Part shown: positions 38,346 to 58,391 of the stretch, one piece after another
Layout: each line of letters opens with the position of its first letter
How positions within the stretch are numbered: position 1 is the stretch's first letter
Notes under the pieces: model-generated
Told to the model about the DNA's origin: nothing
The model's input: only the letters and a program-made list of their open reading frames with translations
Database searches by the model: none
Assembly (NCBI GenBank): GCA_951813625.1
Contig: CATOTS010000003.1
Span: forward strand, 1 to 64,000
Length of the DNA: 64,000 nucleotides
Source of the DNA: an uncultured Caldilineaceae bacterium
GTDB lineage: Bacteria; Chloroflexota; Anaerolineae; Caldilineales; Caldilineaceae
Direction of reading: 5' to 3'
Made by a program: the position numbers and the translations under genes

Positions 38346-39215
38346 CTAGTCCTCACGAGGACCCAATTCGGGATAGAATGGCTTCGCCCCCCGCAGCCCG
38401 GTCTGGGCGTTCATCCCGATATGCCAGCGGCCCAGGTTGGCCCAGAACAGCACTGACAGTTTCGGCCCGCCGAAACAGACGTTGGTCGGCGCGCCCAAGG
38501 CTGTTCCCTCGTAGTCGTCCATCAGTACGGTGAGGTCGCCATTGGGCAGGACGCGCAGGATGGTGTCGGGCCGGTAGCAGGAGATCAGAAAGCCGCCGTC
38601 GGCGCAGAAGGCCAGCCCGTCCGGGACGACCCGCGGCAACTCGACGATTGTTTCGGTCGGCCCCGTCTTGCGGCCGTCCTCGACCGGGAAGCGGACGATT
38701 CGCGGCGGACTGAGCGACATGGCGACGTAGAGGAACCGGCCGTCCGGGCTGAGCGCGCAGCCGTTGGGGAACTGGCTGTTCTCGGTATCGATCACCGTGG
38801 TTGTGCCATCGGGCGCCACGCAGAAGATACAGCCGTCATCGCCGTACCAGGTGCCCGAGTCGGTCACATAGAGGTTGCCATGGGCGTCGAACGCGGGGTA
38901 GTTGGGCGTGCGCATTGGGCGTTCCTCACTGCCCGCGCTGTACTCGCTGACCTTCCCCGCCGGCGTCACCTTGTAGACTGCGCCCCGGTCGGCCGTGCAG
39001 ACGTACAGATTGGCCGCCGCGTCCAGCGCCATACCCAGGTTGAGGCCGCCCGTGTCGGCATAGGTTTCAAGCTGGCGCGAGGAGACGTCGACTCGGTAGA
39101 CCTGCCCTGCTTCGCCGCCGGCGTATATCTTCCCGTCAGGCCCCAGCGCCACCCCTTCGGGATGGTCAAGACCCTCGACGAACGTTTCGGCTTGTTTCAA
39201 ATTGATCAACGGCAT
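38346..39215 (-). CDS. SMP-30/gluconolactonase-like beta-propeller
   Basis: A 289-residue six-bladed propeller of the SMP-30 type: HPEGVALGPDGKIYAGG opens it, then GLNLGMALDAAANLYVC, PNYPAFDAHGNLYVTD (metal-site Asn region), FPNGCALSPDGRFLYVA (second metal-site Asn) and PDGLAFCADGGFLIS (Asp). Members hydrolyse sugar or small organic lactones using one divalent metal. ATG 39215 with AAGGAG. Last gene of the long minus-strand cluster, where it could open a lactone made by the oxygenases or dehydrogenase. Confidence 0.85.
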   Translation of the reverse strand: MPLINLKQAETFVEGLDHPEGVALGPDGKIYAGGEAGQVYRVDVSSRQLETYADTGGLNLGMALDAAANLYVCTADRGAVYKVTPAGKVSEYSAGSEERPMRTPNYPAFDAHGNLYVTDSGTWYGDDGCIFCVAPDGTTTVIDTENSQFPNGCALSPDGRFLYVAMSLSPPRIVRFPVEDGRKTGPTETIVELPRVVPDGLAFCADGGFLISCYRPDTILRVLPNGDLTVLMDDYEGTALGAPTNVCFGGPKLSVLFWANLGRWHIGMNAQTGLRGAKPFYPELGPRED

Positions 39216-39317
39216 CTCCTGTCTCCTTACATTGACTGAATCCCGCGCCTATCCGAGATTCGGCGTCGTCGCAGAAGCCGCATTCTGCAGTTCTGGATCC
39301 TCCTCGGACTACAATTG

Positions 39318-40079
39318 CTAATAATTATTGCTTACAACGCCCGGCTGCCACTGGTTGGCGCCCATCAGCTGCTGCACGACCTCTGACGGGCTGTCCAGTT
39401 CGGCCAGTTGGGCGCGCATATCCTCCTGTGTGACGTAAAACGGGCGCGTGTACATCCCCAGCAGGACGGAACGCGGCTTGTCGGTGGTGTTGGGGCGGGC
39501 GGTGTGCCAGGTCTTACCGTTCATCACCATCACGCTGCCGCGCTGCCCGGTCAGAATCTCGCCGCCATCAATCCACTGGTTGGCGATTTCGGGCGGCGGC
39601 CGGTGGCCTTTGCGATGGCTGCGGGGCATGATGCCGGTGCCCCCGTTTTCGACGGTCAGGTCGTCGAGCAGCCACATCGTCTGCCCGCTCACGTTGTCGG
39701 ACGGCCAGGGGTGATTCACGCGCTGGAATGGAAAATCCGGGTGCCAGCCGTAGCGGTTGTAACCGGGATAGGCGGTGTTGGCGGTCCAGGTGGAGCAGAT
39801 CACATCTTCATCGAGGTACTGTTTCCAGATCGCGTGAACCAGTGGATGGGCCATCAGTTCCACGAAGATCGGGTCCTTTACTGCGATGCGGGCGACGCGC
39901 TGGGTGCGCGTGCGCCATGTGCCTTCGGTCGCCTCTTCGGCCAGCAGGAGTTCGAGCACGGCGCGGGCCTGATCTGCCTTCTCAGTGCAGATAACTCCTG
40001 GAATCACGCAATAACCGCGTTCGTCCATCTCGGCGATGATACCGGCTATGTCATGTTTGCCGTTCGAACTCGAATCCAC
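39318..40079 (-). CDS. PhyH-type 2-oxoglutarate/iron oxygenase
   Basis: A 253-residue phytanoyl-CoA dioxygenase family protein. The facial triad is visible: His and Asp in GWHPDFPF, and the distal His in WHTARPNTTDKPRSVLL, with the Arg that binds 2-oxoglutarate. LDDLTVENGGTGIMPRSHRKGH is the usual core. GTG 40079 is preferred: AAGGAG precedes it by 8 bases, whereas the open frame's first GTG (40088) overlaps that site. One of four PhyH genes in the cluster. Confidence 0.86.
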   Translation of the reverse strand: MDSSSNGKHDIAGIIAEMDERGYCVIPGVICTEKADQARAVLELLLAEEATEGTWRTRTQRVARIAVKDPIFVELMAHPLVHAIWKQYLDEDVICSTWTANTAYPGYNRYGWHPDFPFQRVNHPWPSDNVSGQTMWLLDDLTVENGGTGIMPRSHRKGHRPPPEIANQWIDGGEILTGQRGSVMVMNGKTWHTARPNTTDKPRSVLLGMYTRPFYVTQEDMRAQLAELDSPSEVVQQLMGANQWQPGVVSNNY

Positions 40080-40124
40080 CAGTTGCACTCCTTAGTCCGA
40101 ATTATAAACAGTTGCCTGTTCCGA

Positions 40125-40877
40125 TTACGCAGGGGACAGCGGCGGCTGGCCGTGTGCGATCAGCCAGGTCACGAACCTGGTCCGCATCGACGGCGAGCGC
40201 GTGTGGCCAACCTCTGGGTCTACGAAATGCTCGGCCTGCCCACCCTGCTGGTTGATCAGGCGTACCGTCTCTGCGTTGGTCGCTGCCGGGCAATCGTCAT
40301 CGAGGCCGCCGTCGATGAAGAGCACGGGCCTGTCGGCAAAACGCTCCGGATGCAGCTGCGTCGCGTAGTCGGCGCACCCTTCGTCGCACCAAGTCCCCCG
40401 CTGCGCCTGGCGGCACCACTCGTCCGCCTGGAAAAAACTTGAACGGCCTACGATCGAGACCATCGAGGCAAACGCTTTGTTCTCGGCGAAGACCATCTGC
40501 GCGATCAGGCCGCCCATCGACGTTCCGCATACCTGCGGGTTTTCGCGTGAGACGAACGGCAACGCCGTCGCCGCGTCGAAGAGTTCCGGCGCCTCCTGGC
40601 GCGTCCGGTCCATCGCCTGGCAGACAAAGGCCCAGCCGTTGAACTGGACGCGAAACCAGGCGCCGCTCCTGCGCTCGCCGTGCTCGTAGCAGTCCGGCGC
40701 CACAACGCAGAATCCGGCCGATGCCAGCTGCACGAGCGACTGATCGAGGTTTTCGAGACTGCCCTTGTCGCCCGTCCAGCCGTGGTAGTGGATGACGACC
40801 GGGGCTTTCTCTATGTTGTTCTCGCGTATGATGAGCGAGGGGATTCCGGCCAGTTCCACCCTGTCAATGGCAAGCAT
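40125..40877 (-). CDS. Alpha/beta hydrolase
   Basis: A 250-residue hydrolase of the dienelactone-hydrolase/acyl-peptidase type. The oxyanion strand is VIHYHGWTGDKGSLE. The nucleophile Ser is in CGTSMGGLIAQM, the acid in LFIDGGLDDDCP, and the His in EVGHTRSPS. The start ATG 40877 lies 8 bases after the upstream PhyH gene; the open frame extends further but into that gene. A serine esterase or lactonase step in the pathway is plausible. Confidence 0.84.
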   Translation of the reverse strand: MLAIDRVELAGIPSLIIRENNIEKAPVVIHYHGWTGDKGSLENLDQSLVQLASAGFCVVAPDCYEHGERRSGAWFRVQFNGWAFVCQAMDRTRQEAPELFDAATALPFVSRENPQVCGTSMGGLIAQMVFAENKAFASMVSIVGRSSFFQADEWCRQAQRGTWCDEGCADYATQLHPERFADRPVLFIDGGLDDDCPAATNAETVRLINQQGGQAEHFVDPEVGHTRSPSMRTRFVTWLIAHGQPPLSPA

Positions 40878-40884
40878 GACGAAT

Positions 40885-41745
40885 CTATCCCATTCCGCCT
40901 TCCCCCACCGGCGCCGGTTCGACCATATCCGGCCAGGCGCGGAAAAGCCGGCGCTGCCCCGGCGAAAAACGCGCAAAGGTCTGTGGCAGGATATACTGTT
41001 CTTCGTCCATTGTTGCGATATTCTGTGACTTCATCCAGAACGGGCCATACCCGATATGGACGGTCTTGCGTGTCTGGTCCGACAGGTTGGTCAGCCCGCC
41101 GTGGCGCAGATTCTCGGTGAACAGAATGCCGTCTCCGGCGCGCGCCGGCAGCCCAGTCATGCCCGGCTCTTCGTCGGGGTTGCGGCCCTCGTATGGGACG
41201 GGCACATTACTCTTGTGGGTCGCTGGCACAACGCTGAACGGTCCATCTTCCGGGCCTACATCATGGACGAAGTATATCATTCGCACCATCATGCAGTTGA
41301 TGCCGGTGCGGTTAAAAGAGTAGGCATGTTTGACGCTGACCTGCCCGCCCATGTGCGTTCCGGTCTGGTTGCCGGGGTAGCGAATACGGATCTCTGAGTT
41401 GTTAATCGTCGGCCGTTCCTGAACAATCGCATTGATGTAGGCCATGGTGGGCGGATGGTCAACCAGCAGATCGAAGGTGGGATCGGCGTTGAAAAAGTCC
41501 TCGATGATCATGGTGTTCCCCGGCTCCCTGGCGCCGTTGACATAGTAGCCTCTTTCGGCGTTATGATGATACTCCAGACGTCCCGTCGGGCTCATCCGTC
41601 GCGGCGGACGGTCGGCGCGTTCGGCCGCCTCCTCTTCCAGCGCGTCGATCGCGGCCGCGAGGCAAGTGACCTGCTCTTCTGTCAGCAGGCCGGGTACTGA
41701 AAGAAAACCCACGCGATCGAACTCGTAACGTTCCACTTCATTCAT
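40885..41745 (-). CDS. PhyH-like protein with His-x-Gly in place of the iron facial triad
   Basis: A 286-residue protein of the phytanoyl-CoA dioxygenase fold. ATG 41745 follows GGGGGAG. The metal motif expected as H-x-D reads GTHMGGQ: H131 is present, but position 133 is Gly. The distal His (H215, LRHGGLTN) and an Arg 11 residues later (R226) are retained. Loss of the carboxylate is the hallmark of non-haem iron halogenases, but it also occurs in inactive or altered relatives. FVHDVGPEDGPFSVVPATHKSN confirms the family. It lies between a TPP enzyme and a hydrolase. Confidence 0.82.
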   Translation of the reverse strand: MNEVERYEFDRVGFLSVPGLLTEEQVTCLAAAIDALEEEAAERADRPPRRMSPTGRLEYHHNAERGYYVNGAREPGNTMIIEDFFNADPTFDLLVDHPPTMAYINAIVQERPTINNSEIRIRYPGNQTGTHMGGQVSVKHAYSFNRTGINCMMVRMIYFVHDVGPEDGPFSVVPATHKSNVPVPYEGRNPDEEPGMTGLPARAGDGILFTENLRHGGLTNLSDQTRKTVHIGYGPFWMKSQNIATMDEEQYILPQTFARFSPGQRRLFRAWPDMVEPAPVGEGGMG

Positions 41746-41835: not shown

Positions 41836-43485
41836 CTAGCTGAAGTTGGCGAAACCGTGGGGCGTTTTGACGTCGATTACTGTAACCGTCTCTGCGTTCA
41901 ACGCTTCCTCCAACGTTTCCAACATCTCCGCCAGCGACGCCACCTGTACGCCGCGCGCGCCATAGGCCGCGGCCAAACCGGCGAAATCGGGACCTCGCAA
42001 GTCACTGGCGATGTATCGTCCATTGTAGCGGCTCTTCTGATAGTGGCGCAGCAGCCCCCACGCGTTGTCATTGAAGATGAGAACGATCGGTTTGAGCCCA
42101 TACTGTACGCACGTGCCCAGCTCCTGGATGTTGAACTGCACGCCGCCGTCGCCCGTGATACAGACGACCTGCCGTTCCGGCGCGCTCGCCTGGGCGCCCG
42201 CAGCCGCGGGCAAGCCGAATCCCAGGCCGCCCCACGCCGGCGCAATGTAGCTCCGTTGCGCGTAGATGTCGAGGCAATAGTTCGCCCCGCGGTGATTGCA
42301 GACGCCGACATCGCCGACAAAGATGGCATCTCTGGCCGCAGCTGCGCGGATCGCCTCCATGATTTGCGTCTCGTTGGGCATCGTCCTGCGCTTAAATTTG
42401 ATAATCCTGCGCCTGGTCTCGCTGATTTCGCGGGAAAAGGCGGCCTCACGGCGTACGCACCTGTCTGACAGCGCAGCGTCCAGTTGTCCAAGCACCGTCA
42501 TTGCATCGCCCACCAGTTGCACATCAGCGGTGTACCATTTGCCTATCGAAGCCTGGTCAATGTCCAGGTGTATGAGTTGTGAGGGCTGGCGCAGACCCTG
42601 TGACTTTGCCCTGAAGTAGGAGAGACTCGAACCCACGACCAGCAGCGTGTCGAGGCTGTTGGCGAGAACCTGCCGCGGATCTTCCAGCCCGCCCGGCGGA
42701 AAGTTGTACTCGCCCCCATACATGCCCAGGCTCAACGGGTGATCTTCGGGAATCGCGCCCTTTCCGTTGGCAGTGGTGAATACCGGCGCGTCGAGCCGCT
42801 CAGCCAGGCGCGTCAGATCGGGCGCCGCCCCCGAGCGGTGAACGCCTGTCCCGGCCAGCACGCCGATCCGCCCGCCGGCCGCCAGGATGTCGGCCGCCGC
42901 TCCGACCGCGTCCTCATCTGCCGCCTCTGCCGGAATGCGGACCGGAGGCGGAATCTCCACCTCGGCAACTTGCTCCTGAACGTCTGCAGGAATCTCGATC
43001 GCGATCGGGCGCGGCCGCCGGCGCTGAAAACGTTCGAAGGCCGCGCGTACCTGCTCCGGCACAGCTTCGGCACTGCTGACGTGGACGCTGTGCTGCGTGA
43101 CGGTCGAGAGCATGCCCAGCTGGTCCTTGGTCTCGTGCATCGCGCCCAGGCCGCGCTCGTACATGGCGTCTTCCGGAGTGCTGGTGATCGTCAGCACAGC
43201 CGAGGAAGCGAAATAGGCCTCTCCCAGGCCCCCCATCGCATTGGCCGCGCCCGGTCCTGTGCTGGTCAGGCAGATGCCGGGCTTGCCGCTGGCCCTGGCG
43301 TAGCCGTCTGCCATCATCGCGGCGGCGTGTTCGTGGCGGGCGCTGATGAAGCGGATGGCGTCCCGGTGGTCGTAGAGCGCGTCGAAAATCTCCATCGTGT
43401 GGCTGGAGATGATCCCGAAAACGGTGTCCACGCCTTGCTCACGCAGCGATTCGACAAGCGCCTGCGCGGCTGTCATTCTTGCCAT
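41836..43485 (-). CDS. Thiamine diphosphate-dependent synthase/decarboxylase
   Basis: A 549-residue enzyme of the acetolactate synthase/benzoylformate decarboxylase superfamily. The cofactor-activating Glu is in ARHEHAAAMMADGYAR, and the diphosphate/Mg site is ITGDGGVQFNIQELG...NDNAWG. It lacks the regulatory partner IlvN and stands among catabolic genes, so it is more likely a 2-oxoacid decarboxylase or carboligase of the pathway than an isoleucine-valine enzyme. ATG 43485 with GGGAGG. Confidence 0.86.
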   Translation of the reverse strand: MARMTAAQALVESLREQGVDTVFGIISSHTMEIFDALYDHRDAIRFISARHEHAAAMMADGYARASGKPGICLTSTGPGAANAMGGLGEAYFASSAVLTITSTPEDAMYERGLGAMHETKDQLGMLSTVTQHSVHVSSAEAVPEQVRAAFERFQRRRPRPIAIEIPADVQEQVAEVEIPPPVRIPAEAADEDAVGAAADILAAGGRIGVLAGTGVHRSGAAPDLTRLAERLDAPVFTTANGKGAIPEDHPLSLGMYGGEYNFPPGGLEDPRQVLANSLDTLLVVGSSLSYFRAKSQGLRQPSQLIHLDIDQASIGKWYTADVQLVGDAMTVLGQLDAALSDRCVRREAAFSREISETRRRIIKFKRRTMPNETQIMEAIRAAAARDAIFVGDVGVCNHRGANYCLDIYAQRSYIAPAWGGLGFGLPAAAGAQASAPERQVVCITGDGGVQFNIQELGTCVQYGLKPIVLIFNDNAWGLLRHYQKSRYNGRYIASDLRGPDFAGLAAAYGARGVQVASLAEMLETLEEALNAETVTVIDVKTPHGFANFS

Positions 43486-43588: not shown

Positions 43589-44725
43589 TCAATGGGGAGC
43601 GACGCGAAACCGTTTCACCACATCTTCATTCAGTTCAAAGCCCAGCCCCGGCCGTTTTGGAACTTCGATCATCCCGTTCGCATCGACCTCGATTTCAGGC
43701 GCGAGCAGCTCCGAGATAATCGGCGAATCGGGATACGCGATCGGCAATTCGAAATAGGGCATATTGGGCAAGACCGCGGCCAGGTGAATTTCCGCCGCGA
43801 CCCCGACCATGTGGCACCAGGCATGGGGAACGCAGATCAGCCCGCGGCGGTACGCGGCCTCGGCGATGCGGGCAATCTCGCGCATGCCCCCCGAGCGCAC
43901 CGAACTGGGCTGGACCACGTCAACCCGCCCTTTCTCCATGATCTCTTCGAATTCGAACCGGGTCGTAAAGCCCCAGTCGCCGACGGCGATGCGCGTCTCC
44001 ACCGTATCCGCCAGCCGCGCCAGGCCGGCCAGGTTGTCGGCCGGCAGCGGCGCCTCGATGAAGTACGGGCGATACTCGGCGATTGCCCTGATCGAGTCGA
44101 GCGCCTGCCCCACCTCGGACCAGCGGTTCTGCACGTCAATCATCAGGTCGCGGTCTTCGCCGATCGTTTCGCGCGCCGCCCGCACGACTTCCGCGTCGCG
44201 CTGGGGGCTGACATGGGCAAAGCCTCCCGGCCACTCTTCAAGCTTCATGGCGCGCAGGCCGCGTTCTCTGGCAAGACCAAACCGTTCCGCAATCTCGCCT
44301 ACGTCCTCTCCTGGCGGGTAGACGGTGGCGTAGGGCCGCACCTTCTCCCGGATCTCGCTCGGTTCCGTGACGGTGCAACAGGCCTGCCAGATCAGTTCAC
44401 AGACGGGCTTGCCCAACGCCTTGCCGGCGATGTCCCACAGCGCCGTCTCCACGGCACCGATCGCTGCGATCGTGACCCCGCGGCGGCCAAAGAGCCCTGT
44501 GGCGGCGTACATCTTCTGCCAGAGCCGCTCGACCTGCAGCGGATCTTCGCCGCGCACCAGCTCCTCGAGGCCGCCGTTGCAGCGGATGATCGCGTCGATT
44601 ACCAGCGACGGCGACTCGGCCTGCCCGATGCCGCTGACGCCCTCATCGGTATGCACGCGCACGACCGTCTCCTGTGCCTTTCCCGGGTCGAGCAACGCGA
44701 CCGTTTCGATGGCTGTGATTTTCAC
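43589..44725 (-). CDS. Enolase superfamily (mandelate racemase/muconate lactonizing type)
   Basis: A 378-residue protein that abstracts a proton alpha to a carboxylate. Metal ligands are visible in LMIDVQNRW (Asp), FIEAPLPADN (Glu) and the following RIAVGDWG strand; candidate base residues are in MKLEEW (Lys) and CVPHAWCHMVG (His). This set is typical of sugar-acid dehydratases. GTG 44725 is the start. Downstream of the propeller genes and upstream of the TPP enzyme, which fits sugar-acid dehydration followed by 2-oxoacid cleavage. Confidence 0.86.
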   Translation of the reverse strand: MKITAIETVALLDPGKAQETVVRVHTDEGVSGIGQAESPSLVIDAIIRCNGGLEELVRGEDPLQVERLWQKMYAATGLFGRRGVTIAAIGAVETALWDIAGKALGKPVCELIWQACCTVTEPSEIREKVRPYATVYPPGEDVGEIAERFGLARERGLRAMKLEEWPGGFAHVSPQRDAEVVRAARETIGEDRDLMIDVQNRWSEVGQALDSIRAIAEYRPYFIEAPLPADNLAGLARLADTVETRIAVGDWGFTTRFEFEEIMEKGRVDVVQPSSVRSGGMREIARIAEAAYRRGLICVPHAWCHMVGVAAEIHLAAVLPNMPYFELPIAYPDSPIISELLAPEIEVDANGMIEVPKRPGLGFELNEDVVKRFRVAPH

Positions 44726-44765: not shown

Positions 44766-46310
44766 TCACTCGAGAAATCGGAAAGAATAGATGTCGGCGT
44801 CTTTCAGCACAAAGCGCAGCCTCACCGGCGCACCGGCCAGGCTGCCCAGTTCGCGTCCACCGTTCCAACGCACGACGCGCTCAAGATCGTCGCCCAGCAT
44901 TTCAACACATTCTTTGAGGCTGAAGCCCTCAACCGGCGAGTTCATCTGATCGCGCAGCAGCTCGACGCGGACGCTGCCGGCCGCAGAGGCCGAGAAGTTG
45001 AGCGCCAGTTTACGGCCGGAGAAGATCAGCGGCTTCGTGATCAGCTCGCCGCCGCTCAGCGGCGCCTGCAGCGAGGCGAACCCGTCGACGCGCAGGGTAT
45101 AGCGACGCAGGTTCGTACTCTCGCCGCGCCAGTAGCCTTCGTTAACGTAGATCGACAGTTCGTCCGGCGCGCCGGCAAACGGCGAGCGCGTTGTAACGAT
45201 ACCCCAGTTCTGATGGTTGTCGCCGTAGGTCCAGTTGTCTACCGGCCGCAGCCCCGGCCGGATGAAAGACTCCTGCCACAGGTGGAAGTTATAGCCGTCG
45301 CGGCTGCTCATAAGCAAGCTGTCGGTGATCGCCGCGCCGTAACGCTCGGAAATGGCGGACCTCATGCGCCGGTGCTCGACCTCCGGCAGCCCCTCGATCG
45401 CCTCCGACCATGTACGTTCGACATAGCGGGTAGGGAACCCCAGGAGAATGTGCGGAGCGCGGAAGTAGGGCCAGACCTGGTTGGTGTAGAGCTCGTCGGG
45501 GCGTCCTTCGTTGTAGCTGACGTAGACCTGATCGGTCCAGTGGAGATAGTCGGGGGAGGTGGCCGTGAGGATATCGCGGCCGTAGCGCGACCCACGCAAA
45601 CTGTCGTCAGCGCCATCCTCGCGTCTGCCTGCGGGATGAGCGCCGTAGGGTTCCTCGCCGGTCTGCGGCAGCCGGAACTCGTTGCGCTGGTAGGACCGGT
45701 ACTCGCCGCGGGCCCCGTCCCAGAAGGCCAGGTTCTGGGTATCGAACGGGCCGAATGTCAGAACGGGGCCGTCGCTCATCTCCTTCCAGTGGAGGCCGTC
45801 CGGCGAGCTGAAGGCCCACAGTCCTCGCTCGTCGCCGCGCTCCATCAGCGCGAGTGATTTGTAGCGCTCCTCGGGGCGGCAGGCTGGATTCGCGTCCTTA
45901 AACGGGGAGAACAGACCGTTCAGGATCTCCTTCCCGTCGATGACTATGTTGTTTCTTTTCGACCCGTTGAACTCAACCAGCCCCAGCTCCGGCTTGACCC
46001 AATCGATACCGTTCTCGCTCTCGGCATAGCAGATGCACTTGTCATGGGGCAGGCTGAGGCAATTGCCGCTGTAGTCAAATTGCTGCCCGCGGTAATACAT
46101 ACGAAAGAGGCCGTCGTCCTCGAAAACGGTGAAGCCGCCGCAGGCGTTGCCCTCCCAGGGCGCGTCGGTCCGCAGCGCAATCTCCTGCGGCACAGGCCGG
46201 TTCAGGCGCAGCTGCGCGCCTCCGACGAGTTGGGCAATCAGATGGTCGTCAACCATGAGTTCAAGACGGCTGCCAATGTCGATTGGCGCTGTGCTATCCA
46301 GAATGGTCAT
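44766..46310 (-). CDS. Glycoside hydrolase-like five-bladed propeller protein, copy 1
   Basis: A 514-residue soluble protein, close paralogue of its neighbour. Repeated propeller-blade patterns such as FRMYYRGQ, ICYAESENGIDWVKPELG, ALMERGD and FSSPDGLHWKEM resemble GH32/GH43/GH68-type enzymes. The C-terminal 120 residues (YTLRVDGFASLQAP...) look like a beta-sandwich as in GH32. No catalytic residues can be fixed by eye, and no signal peptide is seen, so it may act on an imported glycoside. ATG 46310 with AAGGGA; it follows copy 2 by 26 bases. Confidence 0.72.
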   Translation of the reverse strand: MTILDSTAPIDIGSRLELMVDDHLIAQLVGGAQLRLNRPVPQEIALRTDAPWEGNACGGFTVFEDDGLFRMYYRGQQFDYSGNCLSLPHDKCICYAESENGIDWVKPELGLVEFNGSKRNNIVIDGKEILNGLFSPFKDANPACRPEERYKSLALMERGDERGLWAFSSPDGLHWKEMSDGPVLTFGPFDTQNLAFWDGARGEYRSYQRNEFRLPQTGEEPYGAHPAGRREDGADDSLRGSRYGRDILTATSPDYLHWTDQVYVSYNEGRPDELYTNQVWPYFRAPHILLGFPTRYVERTWSEAIEGLPEVEHRRMRSAISERYGAAITDSLLMSSRDGYNFHLWQESFIRPGLRPVDNWTYGDNHQNWGIVTTRSPFAGAPDELSIYVNEGYWRGESTNLRRYTLRVDGFASLQAPLSGGELITKPLIFSGRKLALNFSASAAGSVRVELLRDQMNSPVEGFSLKECVEMLGDDLERVVRWNGGRELGSLAGAPVRLRFVLKDADIYSFRFLE

Positions 46311-46336: not shown

Positions 46337-47920
46337 TCAGCCGGCAACAAACTGGAACGCGTAAAGGTCGGCATCGCGCAGAACAATGCGCATGCGGATG
46401 GGGACGCCGGCCAGTCGGCTGACGTCGCCGCCGCCGGTCCAGCGCACCGTGCGATCGATGTCGTCGCCGAGCAGCTCGACGCAGTCCTCGAGACTGAAGC
46501 CCTCAATTGGCGTGTTCATCTGGTCTCGCAACAGCTCGACGCGCACGCTGCCCGCGGCGGAGGCTGAGAAGTTGACCTGCAGCTGCTCGCCGGCAAAGAT
46601 CAGCGGCTTTGTGACCATTTCGCCCCCGCTCAGAGGGGCATTTACCGACGCGAAGCCATCGACGCGCAGCGTGTAGCGCCGAAGGTTGGTGCTCTCGCCG
46701 CGCCAGTAGCCTTCACTCGTGTAAATCGAGAGTTCATCCGGGGCGCCGGCAAAGTAGGAGCGGGTCGCTACTATGCCTTGCGCGGGAAAGCCGTCGCCGT
46801 ACACCCAATTGTCAACAGGCCGCAGGCCCGGGCGGATGAAAGATTCCGGCCACAGGTTGAAGGTCTGGCCGTCGCGGCTGCTCATGAACATGCCGTCGGT
46901 CAGCGCGCTGCCGAAACGCTCCTCCACGGCGGCGCGCACACGGCGTTCCTCCAACTCCGGCAGTTCCTCCACCGCTCGCGACCAGCCGGGGTCGATGTAG
47001 CGGGTCGGCAGCCCGACAAAGAGGTGCGGGGCGCGGGCGTAGGGAATGATCGAGTTGTTGTAGATCTCGTCGGTGCGGCCCTGGTTGTAGTTGACAAAAG
47101 ACGGCTCGCTCCAGTTGATGAAGTCGCTTGACGTGGCCGTGCGCAGGTCGCGGCCGTGGCGTGAACCGCGTGCGGCCTGGCCGCTCTGCGCCTGGGCCGC
47201 ATAGGGCTCTTCGCCCGTCTTTTCGCTGCGGAACTCGTTGCGGTGGTAGTCGCGGTACTCGCCGCGCACGGTGTCCCAGAAGGCCACGTTCTGCGAATCC
47301 AGCAGGCCGTCGGCGATGACCGGTCCATCGTGCATCGGGGCCCAGTGGATGCCGTCCGGTGATTTGAGCGCGTGCAGACCATCCGGGACTTCTGGGCTGT
47401 GTCCCGGACGCGGCGCCGAGCCGTCAATTCGTGGAATTCGTACCGTCCACGCCTTGTACAGGGCGTCTGCATCCGCAGCCGGGTTCGCATCCTTGAAGGG
47501 AGCAAACGCCCGCACGGGAAAGGGGTGGTCCTCGCTGCTGAGGATGATGTTGTTTCTGCTTGAGCCCTCGAACTCGACCAGCCCAAGCTCCGGCCTGACC
47601 CAGTTGATGCCGTCGCTGCTCTCGGCATAGCAGACGAAATCGGGGTGGGGGTTTTCGTCCAGCCCGTCTTTGGTCGTTATGAATTGGCGGGCTATATAGT
47701 ACATGCGATAGGCGCCGCCGGCCTGGACGACGGCAAACGACGTGCAGGCGTTTCCTTCCCACGGCCTGTCGGTGACCAGCACCACCTCGCGGGGAATCGG
47801 CCTGCTCAGGCGCAGCTCCGCACCTCCGCTGAGACGTGCTATCAGAAAATCGTCCACCAGCGGCTCCAGCCGCTCGCCAATGTCGGTCGGGCCGTCGCTC
47901 ATGGTCTGAATTCGGGTCAT
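46337..47920 (-). CDS. Glycoside hydrolase-like five-bladed propeller protein, copy 2
   Basis: A 527-residue protein collinear with copy 1 from end to end. Shared strings include FIRPGLRPVDNW, EGYWRGESTNLRRYTLRV and LNFSASAAGSVRVELLRD-like segments. The differences cluster in blades 1-3, so the two may accept different substrates. ATG 47920 with GGAGG. No signal peptide. Tandem duplication within the operon is the simplest origin. Confidence 0.72.
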   Translation of the reverse strand: MTRIQTMSDGPTDIGERLEPLVDDFLIARLSGGAELRLSRPIPREVVLVTDRPWEGNACTSFAVVQAGGAYRMYYIARQFITTKDGLDENPHPDFVCYAESSDGINWVRPELGLVEFEGSSRNNIILSSEDHPFPVRAFAPFKDANPAADADALYKAWTVRIPRIDGSAPRPGHSPEVPDGLHALKSPDGIHWAPMHDGPVIADGLLDSQNVAFWDTVRGEYRDYHRNEFRSEKTGEEPYAAQAQSGQAARGSRHGRDLRTATSSDFINWSEPSFVNYNQGRTDEIYNNSIIPYARAPHLFVGLPTRYIDPGWSRAVEELPELEERRVRAAVEERFGSALTDGMFMSSRDGQTFNLWPESFIRPGLRPVDNWVYGDGFPAQGIVATRSYFAGAPDELSIYTSEGYWRGESTNLRRYTLRVDGFASVNAPLSGGEMVTKPLIFAGEQLQVNFSASAAGSVRVELLRDQMNTPIEGFSLEDCVELLGDDIDRTVRWTGGGDVSRLAGVPIRMRIVLRDADLYAFQFVAG

Positions 47921-49743: not shown

Positions 49744-50967
49744 CTACGATTCGGCGGCCACGCGTTCCACCGCGTCCGCGATCGCGGCGGCGATGTACTC
49801 GTTTTCCTCTTCCGTAAGAAGCGCGTGAATCAGTGTGCAAATGATCCTCTCGCTGATCTCGTCGGAGACAGGCAGCGCCTGTCCGCCCACGAGCTGGCGG
49901 TAGAACCCGCGGGTCTTGTACAGCTCCGCCGATGCCATCCAAGACTCGACCATGTACTCCTGCTTGAGAAGCTCCATCAAGCGGTCGCGTTTCTCCCCCG
50001 CCCACTGACGCGGAACCAGCATCGGATAGACGTAGTAGACATGGCCGCAGTCGGGCGGCTCGTAGGGCAGAGTCAACTCGTCGACGTCTTTCAGCAGGGC
50101 AGTCCGTTCGTGCGCCCGTTGCACCCGCATCGCGTTGGTTTCATCGAGCCGCCGCAGCTGCACGTTCCCGACCGCAGCCTGCACCTTGGTCATCTTGTAG
50201 TTGGTCCCCCAGCTATCGGTCGTGTTCCCGAACTGGCGAATGTCGCACAGCCGCGCGTTCAACTCAGGATCGTCGGTCGTGATCATCCCGCCTTCGCCCA
50301 AAGTGGACATATGTTTGCGCGTGTGCAGGCTGAAAACCGTCATCCAGCCCTTCTTGCCCACCGCCGTGCCGCGGTAGGTTGCGCCGCAGGCGCGGGCCGC
50401 GTCGCCTATCACCTTGAGCGGCCCGTGCTTCGGGTGCGGAAATCGTTCGGCGATATCCTGAAGGTCGTCCATCGGCGAGGAGAGGCCGACGAAATGGACG
50501 GGGAAGATGGCGCGCGTGCGCGGCGAAATGAGCCGCTCGACGTCTTCCGGGTCCAGGTTGAGCGTCTTGGGATCGATGTCGCATGCGACCAGCTTTCCGC
50601 CCTGGCTGACGATTGAGTAGGCAGAGGCAATGAAATTGACGGCCGGGCAGATGACCTCGTCTCCCGGCTCGAGGTCGAGGCACATCATCGCCATGTCGAG
50701 CCCGGAACCGGCGCCGTTGATCGAGATCGCATATTCCGTGCCGACATAGTCGGCGAATGAGCGCTCGAAGCTTTGGATCTCCTCGGCGCCGATAAAACCG
50801 AAGCCTCCTTCGCGCCAGTCCATCGAAGCGCGCATCGCCCGGACAGCCGCCTCGACCTCTTCTTCGGTATAGACGCCGCCGAGTTCAGGCTCGTAGCGAA
50901 TCGGCCTTTGCGGACGCCGGCTCTCCAGGATCTCCCGTCGCTGGCTTTTGTCCAAAATGTTGGCCAT
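49744..50967 (-). CDS. DegT/DnrJ/EryC1/StrS family aminotransferase
   Basis: A 407-residue PLP enzyme of the sugar aminotransferase family. INGAGSGLDMAMM binds phosphate, VIGDAARACGATYRG carries the pyridine Asp, and FSLHTRKHMSTLGEGG holds the Lys that forms the aldimine. Members transaminate keto-sugars or act as PLP-dependent dehydratases. ATG 50967 with AAAGGAG. It follows a PhyH gene by 26 bases. An amino sugar or aminocyclitol step is likely, though not proven. Confidence 0.87.
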   Translation of the reverse strand: MANILDKSQRREILESRRPQRPIRYEPELGGVYTEEEVEAAVRAMRASMDWREGGFGFIGAEEIQSFERSFADYVGTEYAISINGAGSGLDMAMMCLDLEPGDEVICPAVNFIASAYSIVSQGGKLVACDIDPKTLNLDPEDVERLISPRTRAIFPVHFVGLSSPMDDLQDIAERFPHPKHGPLKVIGDAARACGATYRGTAVGKKGWMTVFSLHTRKHMSTLGEGGMITTDDPELNARLCDIRQFGNTTDSWGTNYKMTKVQAAVGNVQLRRLDETNAMRVQRAHERTALLKDVDELTLPYEPPDCGHVYYVYPMLVPRQWAGEKRDRLMELLKQEYMVESWMASAELYKTRGFYRQLVGGQALPVSDEISERIICTLIHALLTEEENEYIAAAIADAVERVAAES

Positions 50968-50993: not shown

Positions 50994-51734
50994 TCAGCCA
51001 GGATAATCATCGCGCAGAAAATAGGCGTTGGCGAGAGAGTCGTCTTCGCAGGTTACGCCCTCGGTCACCCAGTGCGTAGCGTAGCCCCGCCGCCAGCGGT
51101 CCGATTCATTGCGATATGAGGTATGCAACGTGCGGCTGTGATGGAAAACGACCCCGCCTTTGCCTACCGGGGCCAGCGCCTCCTTCGAGAAATCAATCTG
51201 GTCTGGATTCGGAACCAGATTGTACGGTTCGCCGGGGAGCGGTTCGTGGGGCAGCAGCGGCTCTTTGTGGCTGCCCTCGATATATCGCAGGCAGCCGTTG
51301 GCCTTATCCACGTCGTCCAGCGCGATCCAGGCGGTGATCAGGTGATCGGCAGGGTGGATGCGAAAGTAAAAATTGTCTTGATGATACGGTTTGGCTGAGC
51401 CAAATCGCGGCGGTTTCATCAGGATCTGATCGCCTTTCAGCAAAGGACGTTTGCCTCCCAGCAACGCTGACAACAGCGTCGTCAATCGTTTGTCCAGCAC
51501 CAGTTCCTTGAATGCGGAATGCTTGAGAAACGGCGTGTCGATTTTCCGGGGGGCCACCTGCCCGTCGTCTGAACGGTCAACGTGATAGGACGAATCGCTC
51601 GCGTCCAACTCGGAGATGCTGACGGAAAGAGCGACTTCGGCCACCCTTTCGGCTTCATGCGCGGCAAAAACATTCTCCACGGCCACCCAACCTCTTTCCC
51701 AATAGTTATCGTACAGTTCCTGACTGATTCTCAC
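50994..51734 (-). CDS. PhyH-type 2-oxoglutarate/iron oxygenase
   Basis: A 246-residue oxygenase. The facial triad is intact: KPYHQDNFYF gives H-x-D and VVFHHSRTLHTSYRN the distal His. ITAWIALDDVDKANGCLRYIEGSHKE is the conserved core, like ectoine hydroxylase and related enzymes. GTG 51734 has GGAGG 6 bases upstream. Probably hydroxylates or demethylates a pathway intermediate. Confidence 0.86.
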   Translation of the reverse strand: MRISQELYDNYWERGWVAVENVFAAHEAERVAEVALSVSISELDASDSSYHVDRSDDGQVAPRKIDTPFLKHSAFKELVLDKRLTTLLSALLGGKRPLLKGDQILMKPPRFGSAKPYHQDNFYFRIHPADHLITAWIALDDVDKANGCLRYIEGSHKEPLLPHEPLPGEPYNLVPNPDQIDFSKEALAPVGKGGVVFHHSRTLHTSYRNESDRWRRGYATHWVTEGVTCEDDSLANAYFLRDDYPG

Positions 51735-51847: not shown

Positions 51848-52672
51848 TTACGCTGTCACAAGCGGCTTCACAGGATGATAGATCAGGGGGTTCTGTTCAT
51901 CACTGTCAAGGGGCGCGCCGATTTTCAGTGTTGCCACGTATGAATCAGGCAGTACGTCCTGATTGCCGTTGAAGACGCTGCCGTCGGGCATGTAGAGACA
52001 GGTCATCGCCCGCCGCCAACCTGGTGTCATGTTGGCCCCGGCGGCATGGGCGACCAGACCGTTGTGAAAAGAGCACGATCCCGCTTTCATCGGCGCGGCC
52101 ACAGTAGGATTGTTCTTCCATTGGGGGTAGACATTGAAGAGATCGCCGAGATTCTCGCCGATGCCCGAGCTGTTGAAGGTTGCTCTCTTGTGGGTGCCCG
52201 GCATGAAGTAGAGACAGCCGTTCTCCAAGGTTGAGTCATCGAGCGCCACCCAAATGCTGATCGCGTCGGGCGAACTGAAAGACCAGAACGGGTCGTCCAG
52301 GTGCCAAGCGGTCGGGTTGGCCCAGGGGGCTTTGTGAAGCGCTTGGTCATGGTAGAGGCGAATGCCTTCGACGCCGGACAACTGTGCCGCCATTCTGCCC
52401 AAGCGGGGATCAAGCATCACCTGGCGCACCTTTTCGTTGGCTTGCCATAGATTGATGCGTTGCACAAAGACCCTGTCGTAATAGCTGTCACCTTCCTGCC
52501 AGCGTTCATTTCCTTCTTGACCGGCAAGTTTCCATTGGCCAAGTTCGGCAACGGCCTCTTCCACTGCATCGCGCCATGTTTCCAGTTCGTCCGCAGTCAG
52601 AAAGTCGTGAATCACGATGAAACCGTTGTTACGGTAAGAATCGATCTGCGCTTGGGTCAGGTCTGTGTACAC
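51848..52672 (-). CDS. PhyH-type 2-oxoglutarate/iron oxygenase
   Basis: A 274-residue oxygenase. GTG 52672 is chosen because a perfect AGGAGG lies 6 bases upstream; the open frame extends to 52774, but those residues are not family-like. AWHLDDPFW supplies H-x-D, and CSFHNGLVAHAAGANMTPGWRR the distal His and Arg. WVALDDSTLENGCLYFMPGTHK is the core. It follows the third propeller gene by 126 bases. Confidence 0.86.
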   Translation of the reverse strand: MYTDLTQAQIDSYRNNGFIVIHDFLTADELETWRDAVEEAVAELGQWKLAGQEGNERWQEGDSYYDRVFVQRINLWQANEKVRQVMLDPRLGRMAAQLSGVEGIRLYHDQALHKAPWANPTAWHLDDPFWSFSSPDAISIWVALDDSTLENGCLYFMPGTHKRATFNSSGIGENLGDLFNVYPQWKNNPTVAAPMKAGSCSFHNGLVAHAAGANMTPGWRRAMTCLYMPDGSVFNGNQDVLPDSYVATLKIGAPLDSDEQNPLIYHPVKPLVTA

Positions 52673-52798
52673 AGATGGCCTCCTATTCATCTTAGCTCTC
52701 TGCGCCGGCATGGAATAGAGCCCTGCGCCTGGCCCGTCTTTCACCGAGGCGCCTTGCCATCGCGGCTTCTTCACCGTGATTAATGCAATCTGATGCGC

Positions 52799-54232: not shown

Positions 54233-54259
54233 GTCCCTCTCCAAGCATCAGACGTTAAT

Positions 54260-54474: not shown

Positions 54475-55383
54475 CTAGTCGCGTATCAGGCGCGGATCCA
54501 GCGCATCGCGTAGGCCGTCGCCGATGAAGTTGATGCTCAGCACGCACAGCGTAATGGCCAGCCCGGGGGGCACCCACAGCCACAGATAGTCCTGGATGAT
54601 CGCCGGGGACCTCGCCTCATTGATCATTTGTCCCCAACTGGGCACCGGTATCCTGACACCGAGTCCCAGGAAGCTCAGGCCGGCCTCCAGCAAGATAGCG
54701 CCTGCGACCCCGAAGCTCGCCGCTACAATGATCGGCGCCATTGTGTTCGGCAAAACGTGGCGGAGGATGATCCCTTTGGCCGGCACGCCTGTGGCCCGGG
54801 CGGCCATCACATAGTCCTGGGCGCGCACCGACAATACCTGGCCGCGCACCAGACGGGCGATGCCTGTCCATCCCAACAGCCCGATGGCCAACATCGAGTT
54901 AAAAAGCCCCGGTCCGATAAAGGCCACAATCGTGATCAGCATCACATATCCGGGGATAGACATGACAGTCTCGGTGACGCGCATGATGATCGAGTCAACC
55001 ATCCCACCGTAGAATCCGGCCAGACTGCCCAGCACGATTCCAATGCTCATGTAGATTACGACCGCAACCAGCCCAACGGCGAGCGACACCCGCCCGCCGT
55101 AGACCACGCGGCTCCACATGTCCCGCCCCGTCAAGTCGGTGCCCAGCAGGTGATCAGCGCTGGGCGGTTGCCCTATTTCTCTCAAATTGGTTGCGTGCGG
55201 ATCCTGGGGGGCGACAACCTTCGCCAGCGGAAAGACCAGCGGCACTACGACCAGCATAAAGGCCGCGCCGGCCACTGCGGCTCTGTTGCGCATGAAGCGG
55301 CGCACGATTCGACCTTTGTGCGTCGATCCGGCAATCTCCTCCACCATTATGCTTTCGGCTGCGCTGTTCTCATCGGAGGCCAT
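54475..55383 (-). CDS. ABC transporter permease (DppC/OppC type)
   Basis: A 302-residue inner-membrane protein with six hydrophobic segments and an N-terminal OppC_N-like region (RRFMRNRAAVAGAAFMLV). The EAA-loop segment is YVMAARATGVPAKGIILRHVLPN, which contacts the ATPase. ATG 55383 is used; the frame is open from TTG 55416. With the adjacent DppB-type permease and binding protein it forms an uptake system for peptides or oligosaccharides. Confidence 0.9.
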   Translation of the reverse strand: MASDENSAAESIMVEEIAGSTHKGRIVRRFMRNRAAVAGAAFMLVVVPLVFPLAKVVAPQDPHATNLREIGQPPSADHLLGTDLTGRDMWSRVVYGGRVSLAVGLVAVVIYMSIGIVLGSLAGFYGGMVDSIIMRVTETVMSIPGYVMLITIVAFIGPGLFNSMLAIGLLGWTGIARLVRGQVLSVRAQDYVMAARATGVPAKGIILRHVLPNTMAPIIVAASFGVAGAILLEAGLSFLGLGVRIPVPSWGQMINEARSPAIIQDYLWLWVPPGLAITLCVLSINFIGDGLRDALDPRLIRD

Positions 55384-55469
55384 GGTTTTTGGATGCGCTG
55401 CAACGCTGTTTCGCAAGCGCGCGGTGTACAGTGCGCGGCCGCTGCGCAGCTACCGCCCGCAGCCGCACT

Positions 55470-56450
55470 TCATTCGTAGCGAATCCGCGGGTCCACTACC
55501 ACATAGGCGAGGTCGGTCAGCAGAGTGCTCAGCACGATCAGCACTGTCGAGAACAGCCCGATGCCCATGATCAGCGGATAGTCCCGTCTCTCCACACCGG
55601 CCATGAACAGGATTGACATCCCCGGCCAACCGAAAATCGTCTCAATGACCAGCGCTCCGCCAAAAAGCTCAGGCAGATGAAGCCCCGTTATCGTGATCAC
55701 AGGCAAGAGGGCGTTGCGTAGCACGTGCCTGTATATAACAACGGTCTCCTTCAAACCCTTGCTACGCGCCACCGTTGCATAGTCCTGGAGAAGATGCTCC
55801 AGCATGCTTGAACGACTGTAGCGCATGAAGCTGGCCATACCTGGGATGCCTAACGCCGTCGCCGGAAGAATCAGGTATTTCAGTCGATCCAGCATACCAT
55901 CCCAGAATCCGAAATCGCGCGTCACCGTCGAGTAGCCGAAGGTGGGCAGCAGGTCCAGGTTGAGCGCAAACAGATACATCAGCAGAATCGCGGAGAAGAA
56001 GCTCGGCAATGCTATCGCCACATAGGTCCACCACGTCGCGAAGTAGTCCAGAAAGGAATACTGTCTAACGGCTGTGATGACGCCCAGCGGAATCCCCAGT
56101 GTCAACGATATGAGCAGAGCCGTCACCGTCAGCTTCAGGGTCGCAGGCAGCCGGCGCACGATCTCTTCTGTCACCGGAGTTCTGGTTACAAAGGATTTGC
56201 CCAGGTTGCCGCGCAGTACGCCTCCCAGCCATTTGAGATAGCGGATTGGGGCCGGCTTGTCCAGCCCATACGAGGCCCTCAGCGCCTGCATCCTATCTTC
56301 GTCCATGTCCGCCATAACTCCTATGTCAGGCACGAACATGGCGGTCACAGCGTCTCCGGGAGCAAGCTCTACCAGCGTGAAGATGATTACCGTGATCCCA
56401 AACAGCACTGGCACAGCCTGCAGGAGTCTACGCGCGATGTACCTGGACAT
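55470..56450 (-). CDS. ABC transporter permease (DppB/OppB type)
   Basis: A 326-residue membrane protein. RYIARRLLQAVPVLFGITVIIF starts it, as in the DppB family. The ATPase-contact loop is DYATVARSKGLKETVVIYRHVLRN, and VIETIFGWPGMSILF follows. ATG 56450 with GGAG 8 bases upstream. It lies between the binding-protein gene and the second permease. Confidence 0.91.
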   Translation of the reverse strand: MSRYIARRLLQAVPVLFGITVIIFTLVELAPGDAVTAMFVPDIGVMADMDEDRMQALRASYGLDKPAPIRYLKWLGGVLRGNLGKSFVTRTPVTEEIVRRLPATLKLTVTALLISLTLGIPLGVITAVRQYSFLDYFATWWTYVAIALPSFFSAILLMYLFALNLDLLPTFGYSTVTRDFGFWDGMLDRLKYLILPATALGIPGMASFMRYSRSSMLEHLLQDYATVARSKGLKETVVIYRHVLRNALLPVITITGLHLPELFGGALVIETIFGWPGMSILFMAGVERRDYPLIMGIGLFSTVLIVLSTLLTDLAYVVVDPRIRYE

Positions 56451-56526
56451 GCACGTTTCTCCGTCTTCATTGGCTCGGCGCCAGGCAAGCGGGACGCTCG
56501 CGCCTCCAAGGTACTAGCTGAAAGAA

Positions 56527-56567
56527 GAGATGTTTGCAGTGTGGGGTCTTCCGCCTGCAAACATCTC
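56527..56567 (-). promoter_or_regulatory. 13-bp hairpin between binding-protein and permease genes
   Basis: GAGATGTTTGCAG (56527-56539) and CTGCAAACATCTC (56555-56567) are perfect inverted repeats around a 15-base loop. In transcript direction the stem is followed by a U-rich TTCTTTC. Such hairpins commonly protect binding-protein mRNA and lower permease expression. Confidence 0.7.
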
Positions 56568-56678
56568 CTGAGCTATTCCATCTCCTAGCGGGTGAAACGG
56601 CGTGGGGAATTAGCCAGAGCGCATACACTCTCGCAATACACAATCCTGCAAGGCGTCGGTTTCCAATCTTAACCTTTT

Positions 56679-58391
56679 CTACTCACTTCTCAGATACCAC
56701 CTGTCGGGATGCTGGTCCGAGAAGACAAGCAGGTATTCGCGATACGTGTAATTGCACAGGTCTTTACTGATGGCGTACCTGCGGTCCGGGCGGAAAAGCG
56801 CAACCTGATACGCCGACTCTGTGGCTATCTCAGTCGCCTGATAGAACAGATCCCGGCGTTTCTCCGGGTCTGGTTCCGCGATGCCGCTGACGACCAAGGC
56901 GTCCATTTCTTCGTTGCAGTTCCGGCTCCAATTGGGGTATGGGCTTTTATCGCACGAATCGCGCGTGTACTCGTATGGGGCGGCAGGCCCACCACAACAC
57001 GCGTATCCAATGTCGTAGTCGCCCGCCTCTCGGCTACGCTCTATGAATGCGGGTGTATCCAATACGTTCACCTCGACCTTGACCCCAACCTGGCCCCACT
57101 GGTCCTGCAGGGCGGCAAGGACGCGCCGGTCCAGGTCGCCCTGGTAATAGGTGATGAGCGAAAGTTCGCGGTCGGGGTCCCAGCCGGCCTCCTCCAGCAG
57201 CGTCTTGGCCTTTTCCGGGTCGTAATCGTAAATCGTAATGTCGGGGCTGACCCATTCTCCGGCCGGATCGTTGTCTCGCAGGTCAAAAGCTTCGGCGTGT
57301 CCGAGCCAAATGCCCTCGGCGATGGCCTCCTTGTCGATCGCGAACATGAGCGCCTGACGCACTTTGTGTTCAACCCTTTCCGTGTTCATGTTCAGGTACA
57401 TGCCGCCGGCCGTGGGTCCTGCGATCAACACGACATTCGGGTCCTCCTGCAAGCGGACGCGATCCAGTCCCGACGCCAGGTATCCTGTCTGGATTTCGCC
57501 CTTTTCAAGCGCGGCGATCCAGGTCGCAGTGCTGCCGGTCACGCCGATGCGATAGACCGCCCGGTCCAGGTACGGTCTTCCGCCATAGTAGTCTTCGAAG
57601 GCTTCAAAAGAGGTGTATTCGCTTGGCACATGCTCGACGAACTTGAAAGGCCCCGTGCCAATCGGATGGCCGACCAGCTCGGAATCCTTAAGCTCGCCAA
57701 AGGGGATGTCTTGCATCAAGTGGGCCGGCAGGAGGTTGATCGTTGCGATCAGATATTCGAGGTGCATCTGAGGTTCAAGCACGCTAATCTGCAGGGTAAA
57801 GTCATCCAGCGCCACGATGCCTGAGATCTCATCGGCGCTGCCGTCCAGAAACTCGGTCCCGCCGGAAAAGGCGCGGTAGGGCATCCAACCGGCATTCCAC
57901 GCCCCGACTTCAGGATGGGCATGCACCTCGAACGAATACTTTACGTGGTCAGCTGTCAGCAGTTCGCCATCGTGGAACTTGACATCGTTGCGCAGATTAA
58001 ACGTGTAGGTAAGGCCGTCCGCGGAGATTTCCCACGACTCGGCCGCGTCGGGTTCAAGGGTTACACCGTCACCCAGGACGTCATACAACTGGCTGAAAGA
58101 GTAGAACATGGGGTAGCCCGTACCCCACCAGGTCGGGTTTGACTCCCCCCACCCAAAGAAGATGTCGGTCGCAACTCCACCGTAGGTCGGCGGGGCATCG
58201 GTGCAGATATTGATCCATGACTCGCCTACGTGATCGGGGTTATACCAGAGACCTTCTTCCGGCCCAGGTGATTCTGCGGCAACCTCTTTGGATTCCGTTT
58301 CCGCGGCCATCTCCGGCGCAGCCGCAACACAAGCCGATAGCAACAACCCCATCGCGAACAAGATACTGACAACGAGCGTCAACCGTTTCAT
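56679..58391 (-). CDS. ABC transporter substrate-binding lipoprotein (SBP_bac_5)
   Basis: A 570-residue family-5 binding protein. The signal peptide ends in the lipobox LSAC (Cys about residue 21). The domain opens with ESWEISADGLTYTFNLRNDVKFHDGELL, the usual signature, and VEHKVRQALMFAIDKEAIAEG is the second conserved region. Family members bind peptides, nickel, or plant oligosaccharides such as xyloglucan fragments; ligand not predictable. ATG 58391 with AGGAGG. First gene of the 20-kb cluster. Confidence 0.91.
   Translation of the reverse strand: MKRLTLVVSILFAMGLLLSACVAAAPEMAAETESKEVAAESPGPEEGLWYNPDHVGESWINICTDAPPTYGGVATDIFFGWGESNPTWWGTGYPMFYSFSQLYDVLGDGVTLEPDAAESWEISADGLTYTFNLRNDVKFHDGELLTADHVKYSFEVHAHPEVGAWNAGWMPYRAFSGGTEFLDGSADEISGIVALDDFTLQISVLEPQMHLEYLIATINLLPAHLMQDIPFGELKDSELVGHPIGTGPFKFVEHVPSEYTSFEAFEDYYGGRPYLDRAVYRIGVTGSTATWIAALEKGEIQTGYLASGLDRVRLQEDPNVVLIAGPTAGGMYLNMNTERVEHKVRQALMFAIDKEAIAEGIWLGHAEAFDLRDNDPAGEWVSPDITIYDYDPEKAKTLLEEAGWDPDRELSLITYYQGDLDRRVLAALQDQWGQVGVKVEVNVLDTPAFIERSREAGDYDIGYACCGGPAAPYEYTRDSCDKSPYPNWSRNCNEEMDALVVSGIAEPDPEKRRDLFYQATEIATESAYQVALFRPDRRYAISKDLCNYTYREYLLVFSDQHPDRWYLRSE

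Follow-up and report, generated by a model that had tools for sequence, protein, structure and literature searches.

A conserved, probably carbohydrate-catabolic gene core with an apparently exchangeable Opp-type importer in a genus of Caldilineaceae

The gene array considered here comprises seventeen genes at 38346-58391 of a stretch of 64,000 nucleotides (the window; contig CATOTS010000003.1, positions 1 to 64,000) of an uncultured Caldilineaceae bacterium (Chloroflexota), and described systems resemble it in part. For SAR202, another class of the Chloroflexota, an expansion of enolase-superfamily paralogues has been described and non-phosphorylative sugar-acid pathways have been proposed (PMC6946804, PMC10444878). 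The likeness lies in enzymes of the mandelate racemase/muconate-lactonizing (MR/MLE) type, dehydrogenases and lyases of the dihydrodipicolinate synthase (DHDPS) type as a proposed route for sugars, lactones and sugar acids, and in paralogue expansion as a lifestyle, whereas the expansion concerns COG4948 there and PhyH here, the present locus has linked PhyH genes and propellers resembling glycoside hydrolases (GH), and in the window genome an enzyme dependent on thiamine diphosphate (TPP) stands in the aldolase's place. In Firmicutes and Thermotogota, Opp-type loci for the utilisation of oligosaccharides share the arrangement of a solute-binding protein (SBP), OppB and OppC directly followed by a propeller of the same family (contigs L081-L086, from Lachnospiraceae, Oscillospiraceae and Thermotogota), but the flanks examined hold no homologues of the PhyH, MLE and TPP proteins of this locus. 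Poribacteria are likewise sponge symbionts with many PhyH genes, mostly of unassigned function, which account for above 1.9% of their genes compared with <0.049% in the other genomes then available (PMC3909097); they belong to another phylum, and the Caldilineaceae genus studied here carries about 105-159 first-look candidates per genome, against the <0.049% stated for genomes other than Poribacteria. In the open literature (subscription papers lay outside the search), no report was found that describes this locus, or an expanded PhyH family, for Caldilineaceae from sponges.

The window genome (G000; 5.4 Mb, 59 contigs, 96% complete) was compared with 16 other members of its genus (17 in total) by tblastn synteny and clustering of open reading frames. 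The closest named relatives of prop2, one of the propeller genes, belong to metagenome-assembled genomes (MAGs) of Caldilineaceae (JAJDTL010000036, VXOE01000215, JAPOVP010000021, OY282381), which, from bin names and literature, look like sponge-derived genomes. Nine genes (hyp227, prop2, prop3, MLE, TPP, PhyH3, the alpha/beta hydrolase gene abH, PhyH4 and SGL) keep their order and strand throughout the genus and, given this conservation, the array is not a chance assembly. This core lies between an ammonium-transporter gene (Amt) and sdhBA, the consensus genus locus being Amt, hyp227, prop2, prop3, MLE, TPP, a Gfo/Idh/MocA oxidoreductase, the binding protein SBPx, a GHL10-like gene, OppB, OppC, PhyH3, abH, PhyH4, SGL, kinase, sdhB and sdhA. 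An absence of the PhyH3-abH-PhyH4-SGL block from six relatives was considered and ruled out, as the block is present in 17/17 genomes, split off by an insertion in G015 or located on another contig in several others. No described operon fits this genus-wide locus, in line with the sequence-only reading, which had recognised no known catabolic operon.

The eight genes upstream of the core have a different distribution. SBP5, OppB, OppC, prop1 and PhyH1 occur at this site in the window genome alone (0/16 relatives), while PhyH2, DegT and ADH precede the core in the window genome and its sister G011 and are absent from the site in the 15 other relatives. The view of all seventeen genes as one inherited, conserved operon was therefore dropped after the genus synteny comparison: the unit of 17 genes was put together recently, within a single lineage. 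Scattering in relatives, set beforehand as the sign against a single cluster, is indeed seen for the eight upstream genes, whereas the nine core genes stay together. The best genus relatives of SBP5 are 43-45% identical and all found at other loci; the window permeases share 59-66% identity with their counterparts at a locus on contig C9, where two SBPs, OppBC, two PhyH genes and propellers are found together; and other genus members have a single homologue of prop1 (66-72%), at a different locus. From the site-restricted genes, the divergence of SBP5, the prop1 copy and the C9-like permeases, we infer that the upstream part is a mosaic of recruited modules. DegT is 94% identical in G011, and its counterparts in other relatives (60-61%) lie at different loci.

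At the locus, most relatives have genes for an Opp importer of another kind, a GH-like protein and an oxidoreductase of the Gfo/Idh/MocA family. The window genome lacks the Gfo/Idh/MocA, SBPx and GHL10 genes of the consensus while keeping the nine core genes. The module SBPx-GHL10-OppBC is present in nine genomes (G012, G002, G007, G016, G006, G015, G009, G001 and G005, the SBPx of G001 and G005 falling outside the sequence stretches examined), and is seen in part in G008 and G003, at the ends of contigs; in G014, GHL10 lies near by. GHL10 is absent from G000, where the whole genome was searched, and from G011, G010 and G013. In G004, where the locus carries SBP-OppB-OppC-OppD-OppF and a GH2 enzyme, only a 3' remnant of GHL10 is found (G004:C1:1600873-1601235, the C-terminal part), which is evidence that an ancestral importer module has probably decayed. 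A FastTree phylogeny of three core proteins pairs G010 with G015 and groups G013 with G009 and G008; given that these partners retain the module wholly or partly, repeated loss would be more likely than repeated gain. It appears, then, that the importer is swapped at a fixed catabolic core within the genus, and the genus-level locus with its exchangeable importer is a better object of study than the 17-gene unit. The Gfo/Idh/MocA gene is present in 14 genomes and missing from G000 and G011, and the window ADH may fill its role.

Insertions also occur. In G015, a reverse-strand block parts the two halves of the locus and contains DHDPS, BNR, OppC, OppB, SBP, BNR, propeller, amidohydrolase and two genes resembling ketol-acid reductoisomerase (KARI); the block, seen in G015, G014, G009 and others, adds a DHDPS-type lyase, BNR proteins and an amidohydrolase. 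KARI-like proteins are also encoded at 58688-59710 of the window and at L103:14349-15963, with no obvious context of branched-chain amino acid metabolism; they stand beside propeller or amidohydrolase genes and are paired in several relatives.

The possibility that the nine core genes and the eight genes upstream of them, from SBP5 to ADH, do separate things and are only neighbours in the window genome draws on the same comparison, given that five genes are missing at the site in 16/16 relatives and three in 15, and on the gaps of 228 and 230 bp inside the upstream part. However, the additions lie on the same strand, are tightly packed and include a further propeller of the family found in the core. 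They also look like replacements, because the core elsewhere has an importer and a dehydrogenase, both of which have been lost here (GHL10 is gone from the whole genome). Separate functions are thus considered unlikely, although of the competing explanations this one survives best.

All seventeen open reading frames are present on the minus strand (Table 1), with intergenic gaps of 7-230 bp and a purine-rich stretch preceding many of the start codons, and may be transcribed as a single unit; promoter-like and terminator-like sites at the cluster are not more frequent than in shuffled sequence. The gene classes named in the sequence-only reading are borne out by Pfam (SBP_bac_5, two BPD_transp_1, four PhyH, DegT, ADH, MR_MLE, three TPP domains, alpha/beta hydrolase and SGL) and, for the propellers, by the AlphaFold model of prop2, structure searches and the alignment of prop1 and prop3. 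That list had left the seventeenth gene, for a 227-aa protein, unnamed. This protein and the three propellers have no Pfam match, and its AlphaFold model consists mostly of beta strands at low confidence (pLDDT 57). None of the cluster enzymes scanned reaches a family-specific NCBIfam cut-off, for which reason exact substrates are not readable from annotation. Between SGL and the kinase-like gene, the window has five minus-strand genes at 30539-38114, including a SWIM zinc finger, a MoxR-type ATPase and VWA-like proteins; most relatives have SGL directly beside the kinase gene.

Table 1. Genes of the cluster and its conserved boundaries in the window.
Feature	Position	Strand	Basis and distribution
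SBP5, Opp/Dpp-family solute-binding lipoprotein (PF00496)	56679..58391	-	Pfam E 1e-76; at this site in window genome only
OppB-type permease	55470..56450	-	Pfam; 59% to C9-locus paralogue; not at this site in sister genome
OppC-type permease	54475..55416	-	Pfam including OppC_N; not at this site in sister genome
prop1, GH-like propeller protein, second copy peculiar to window genome	52799..54244	-	aligns with prop2 family
PhyH1, Fe(II)/2-oxoglutarate oxygenase family	51848..52774	-	Pfam E 3e-36; motif HLD, distal H kept; not at this site elsewhere
PhyH2, HxD kept	50994..51734	-	Pfam; motif HQD; 87% in G011; at this site common to sister only
DegT/DnrJ/EryC1/StrS aminotransferase	49744..50967	-	Pfam E 7e-85; pyridoxal phosphate-lysine motif; at this site common to sister only
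Medium-chain dehydrogenase (ADH_zinc_N)	48625..49629	-	Pfam and NCBIfam
hyp227, small protein, genus core	47961..48575	-	no Pfam match; 73-80% over 13 genomes
prop2, five-bladed GH-like propeller (predicted) with C-terminal beta domain, genus core	46337..47920	-	orthologues; AlphaFold model
prop3, tandem paralogue of prop2 (62%), genus core	44766..46310	-	sequence comparison
MR/MLE (enolase superfamily) enzyme, genus core	43589..44725	-	Pfam E 8e-51; 85-93% in relatives
TPP-dependent enzyme, acetolactate-synthase/benzoylformate-decarboxylase group, genus core	41836..43485	-	three TPP domains
PhyH3, HxG replacing HxD, genus core	40885..41745	-	THMGG in 17/17 genomes
Alpha/beta hydrolase (abH), esterase-like, genus core	40125..40877	-	Pfam S9/DLH; 78-88% in 16/17 genomes
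PhyH4, HxD kept, genus core	39318..40088	-	single 77-92% orthologue in 17/17 genomes
SGL (SMP-30/gluconolactonase-like) propeller, genus core	38346..39215	-	Pfam E 4e-27; 81-89% in relatives
Ammonium transporter gene (Amt), conserved left boundary	60842..62221	-	Pfam E 1e-121; upstream of core wherever relatives' contigs reach
Ser/Thr kinase-like gene, conserved right boundary, sdhBA next in relatives	29460..30371	-	adjoins SGL in relatives

Orthologues of prop2 are 76-87% identical in 14/16 genus members, with a 66% copy in G004 and a fragmented one in G003, and among 100 relatives compared there is almost no strong match outside the genus. In its AlphaFold model (pLDDT 83, pTM 0.85), residues 20-424 match five-bladed propeller folds (Z 20-25), namely GH130 phosphorylases (Z 24-25), GH137 BT_0996 (Z 23.6), GH43 and GH62 (Z 20-22), with GH32 also among the closest folds; for the 1,2-beta-oligomannan phosphorylase 9fj8, Z is 24.6 with a root-mean-square deviation of 2.9 over 277 aligned residues. 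The propellers are thus predicted to have five-bladed folds of the GH130/GH43/GH32 type (GH-J/GH-F type), with prop1 and prop3 assigned by alignment with prop2. The likeness to GH130, GH137, GH43 and GH32 enzymes concerns the predicted fold, whereas the alignment identity is only 11-19% and prop2 has an extra C-terminal beta domain. By sequence, prop2 was not placed in a named GH family, given that it has no Pfam match, that the best hit of the PDB sequence search has an E of 0.19, and that the NCBIfam match is weak and only to a beta-1,2-mannobiose phosphorylase model. The family has near-invariant acidic residues (D22, E54, D143, D188, D207 and D265), and is spread over many phyla, often with a start resembling a signal peptide, which the window propellers lack, unlike their Bacteroidota relatives. 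Propeller homologues of 55-57% are also found in Acidobacteriota and Aminicenantes MAGs (L050-L052); the sample prefixes of these MAGs (jk18x, COS) are shared by Caldilineaceae MAGs, which suggests exchange among co-resident symbionts.

The locus probably serves the catabolism of a carbohydrate-type compound in a genus of sponge-associated Caldilineaceae; its enzymatic core is conserved, and its import module would be exchangeable. The sequence-only reading proposed that a glycoside is imported and oxidised step by step, and guessed at amino, methoxy or ring substituents. The proposed uptake and oxidation holds in so far as the genus locus joins an Opp importer with GH-like, NAD-type oxidoreductase, dehydratase-family, TPP, PhyH and lactonase-like proteins, and fails in that these 17 genes are not one conserved unit. 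The substrate, the individual reactions and their order, as we infer them, would be the following. The Opp-family binding protein and OppBC would import a short decorated oligosaccharide or glycoside, with uptake powered by an ATPase encoded elsewhere, and the GH-like propellers, which would be cytosolic, may cleave or phosphorolyse it. Ester groups would be taken off by the alpha/beta hydrolase, and the PhyH oxygenases would introduce hydroxyl groups or remove substituents, for instance O-methyl groups, by oxidation. The dehydrogenase (ADH here, Gfo/Idh/MocA in most relatives) would turn the sugar into a lactone, which the SGL protein would open to the acid; the enolase-superfamily enzyme would convert this acid, by dehydration or isomerisation, into a 2-keto acid for the TPP enzyme to decarboxylate or cleave. 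SBP_bac_5, OppB and OppC of an Opp/Dpp importer are all matched by Pfam, and no OppD/OppF ATPase genes are found in the cluster; the genome has 32 oligo_HPY matches, none of them on contig C3. The linked ATPase can be missing from oligosaccharide ABC importers (PMC12838199).

Several points weigh against this catabolic assignment. The MR/MLE enzyme has the two-domain enolase-superfamily architecture (PF02746 and PF13378) in 16/16 genomes and, in the sequence alignment, keeps a Lys, Asp, Glu and His (PHAW) of the superfamily site, but its third metal ligand is changed from Glu to Asp (GDW) and the Asp of the dyad to Ser (QPS), again in 16/16. The Asp-Glu-Glu ligands and His-Asp dyad of DgoD-like acid-sugar dehydratases are therefore not found in the alignment, and the score against the galactonate dehydratase equivalog is 172.5 bits, below the cut-off of 311. 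To our knowledge there is no precedent for a TPP step downstream of an acid-sugar dehydratase, and SBP_bac_5 importers also transport peptides and other ligands. Finally, the uronate and sugar routes that Bayer et al. give for Caldilineae do not include this locus.

A mandelate-like catabolism of a non-sugar carboxylic acid or a peptide-like compound, with racemase, oxidation and TPP decarboxylase following the import of a peptide or opine by Opp, is quite unlikely. The MR/MLE gene does adjoin that of a TPP enzyme whose PDB relatives are BbmA, acetolactate synthase, glyoxylate carboligase and benzoylformate decarboxylase and whose NCBIfam matches include the 5-guanidino-2-oxopentanoate decarboxylase model, and SBP_bac_5/Opp systems are the classical peptide importers. 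However, two or three GH-like propellers, SGL and Gfo/Idh/MocA are hard to fit into such a route, and no NCBIfam equivalog cut-off is reached. No member of the mandelate dehydrogenase family is among the Pfam matches of the cluster, and the relatives of the MR and TPP enzymes are such at family level only.

That the locus makes a natural product of the amino-sugar or cyclitol type, with DegT, the dehydrogenase, a TPP carboligase and tailoring PhyH enzymes cooperating and the Opp genes serving another purpose, is likewise quite unlikely. In favour of this reading, the nearest PDB entries of DegT are perosamine synthase and scyllo-inositol transaminase, the TPP enzyme matches BbmA first and acetolactate synthase second, and PhyH3 is nearest to 4xc9/4xcb of the oxidase/hydroxylase group (4xc9 being presumably HygX of hygromycin biosynthesis). 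Against it, DegT, the source of the earlier guess at an amino-substituted substrate, lies outside the genus core, the Pfam scan finds no non-ribosomal peptide synthetase, polyketide synthase, glycosyltransferase or sugar-nucleotide enzyme in the cluster, and the genus version has importer, GH-like and lyase genes.

To return to the catabolic locus, its PhyH proteins differ in the iron-binding motif. PhyH1, PhyH2 and PhyH4 keep HxD and the distal His, whereas PhyH3 has THMGG...LRHGG...R in all genomes (17/17), with the distal His and the 2-oxoglutarate (2OG)-binding Arg retained. Replacement of HxD/E by HxG/A has served as the criterion for choosing 2OG halogenases (PMC11186838), and PhyH3 carries the motif of Fe(II)/2OG halogenases; halogenation is at most predicted by this motif. 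In a survey of the window genome that excluded antisense reading frames, HxG proteins were accepted on contigs C2 (two), C14 and C21 besides PhyH3, with one uncertain on C5. A PhyH subfamily with HSGG for HxD is encoded outside the locus in the same genome (L131:3779-4855, L129:4713-5657, L121:12231-13739 and L149:3932-4789; 45-66% mutual identity). PhyH-family enzymes, one from Poribacteria included, O-demethylate the ribose of 2'-O-methyl nucleosides (PMC12709175) and, for this reason, O-demethylation of methylated sugars is a reasonable guess for some of the PhyH proteins. There is a slim chance that the locus encodes an undescribed oxidative glycan pathway of sponge symbionts, in which PhyH3 would carry out a halogenase-type or non-hydroxylating 2OG step on a sugar-derived substrate, followed by the remodelled enolase-superfamily enzyme and by a TPP enzyme that takes the place of an aldolase.

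The window genome has 133 PhyH matches, some of which are fragments. First-look candidates per genome number 105-159 in the genus, 0-88 in other Caldilineaceae (52-88 in g16, g11 and g5, of the same family as the host) and 0-9 in the rest of the class. PhyH genes lie within 10 kb of 23/45 SBP_bac_5 genes and 17/24 propeller genes, compared with 29% expected, neighbours not being independent; the genome-wide association of these genes with PhyH is only moderate.

If the catabolic assignment is true, the locus would provide a concrete and testable gene set for the use of host or seawater glycans by an abundant, uncultured lineage of sponge symbionts. It would also give a catabolic setting to the PhyH oxygenases, whose expansion in sponge symbionts has lacked an explanation since the Poribacteria genomes. 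By exchanging importers around a catabolic core that stays fixed, the members of a single genus could change their diet and keep the downstream enzymes.

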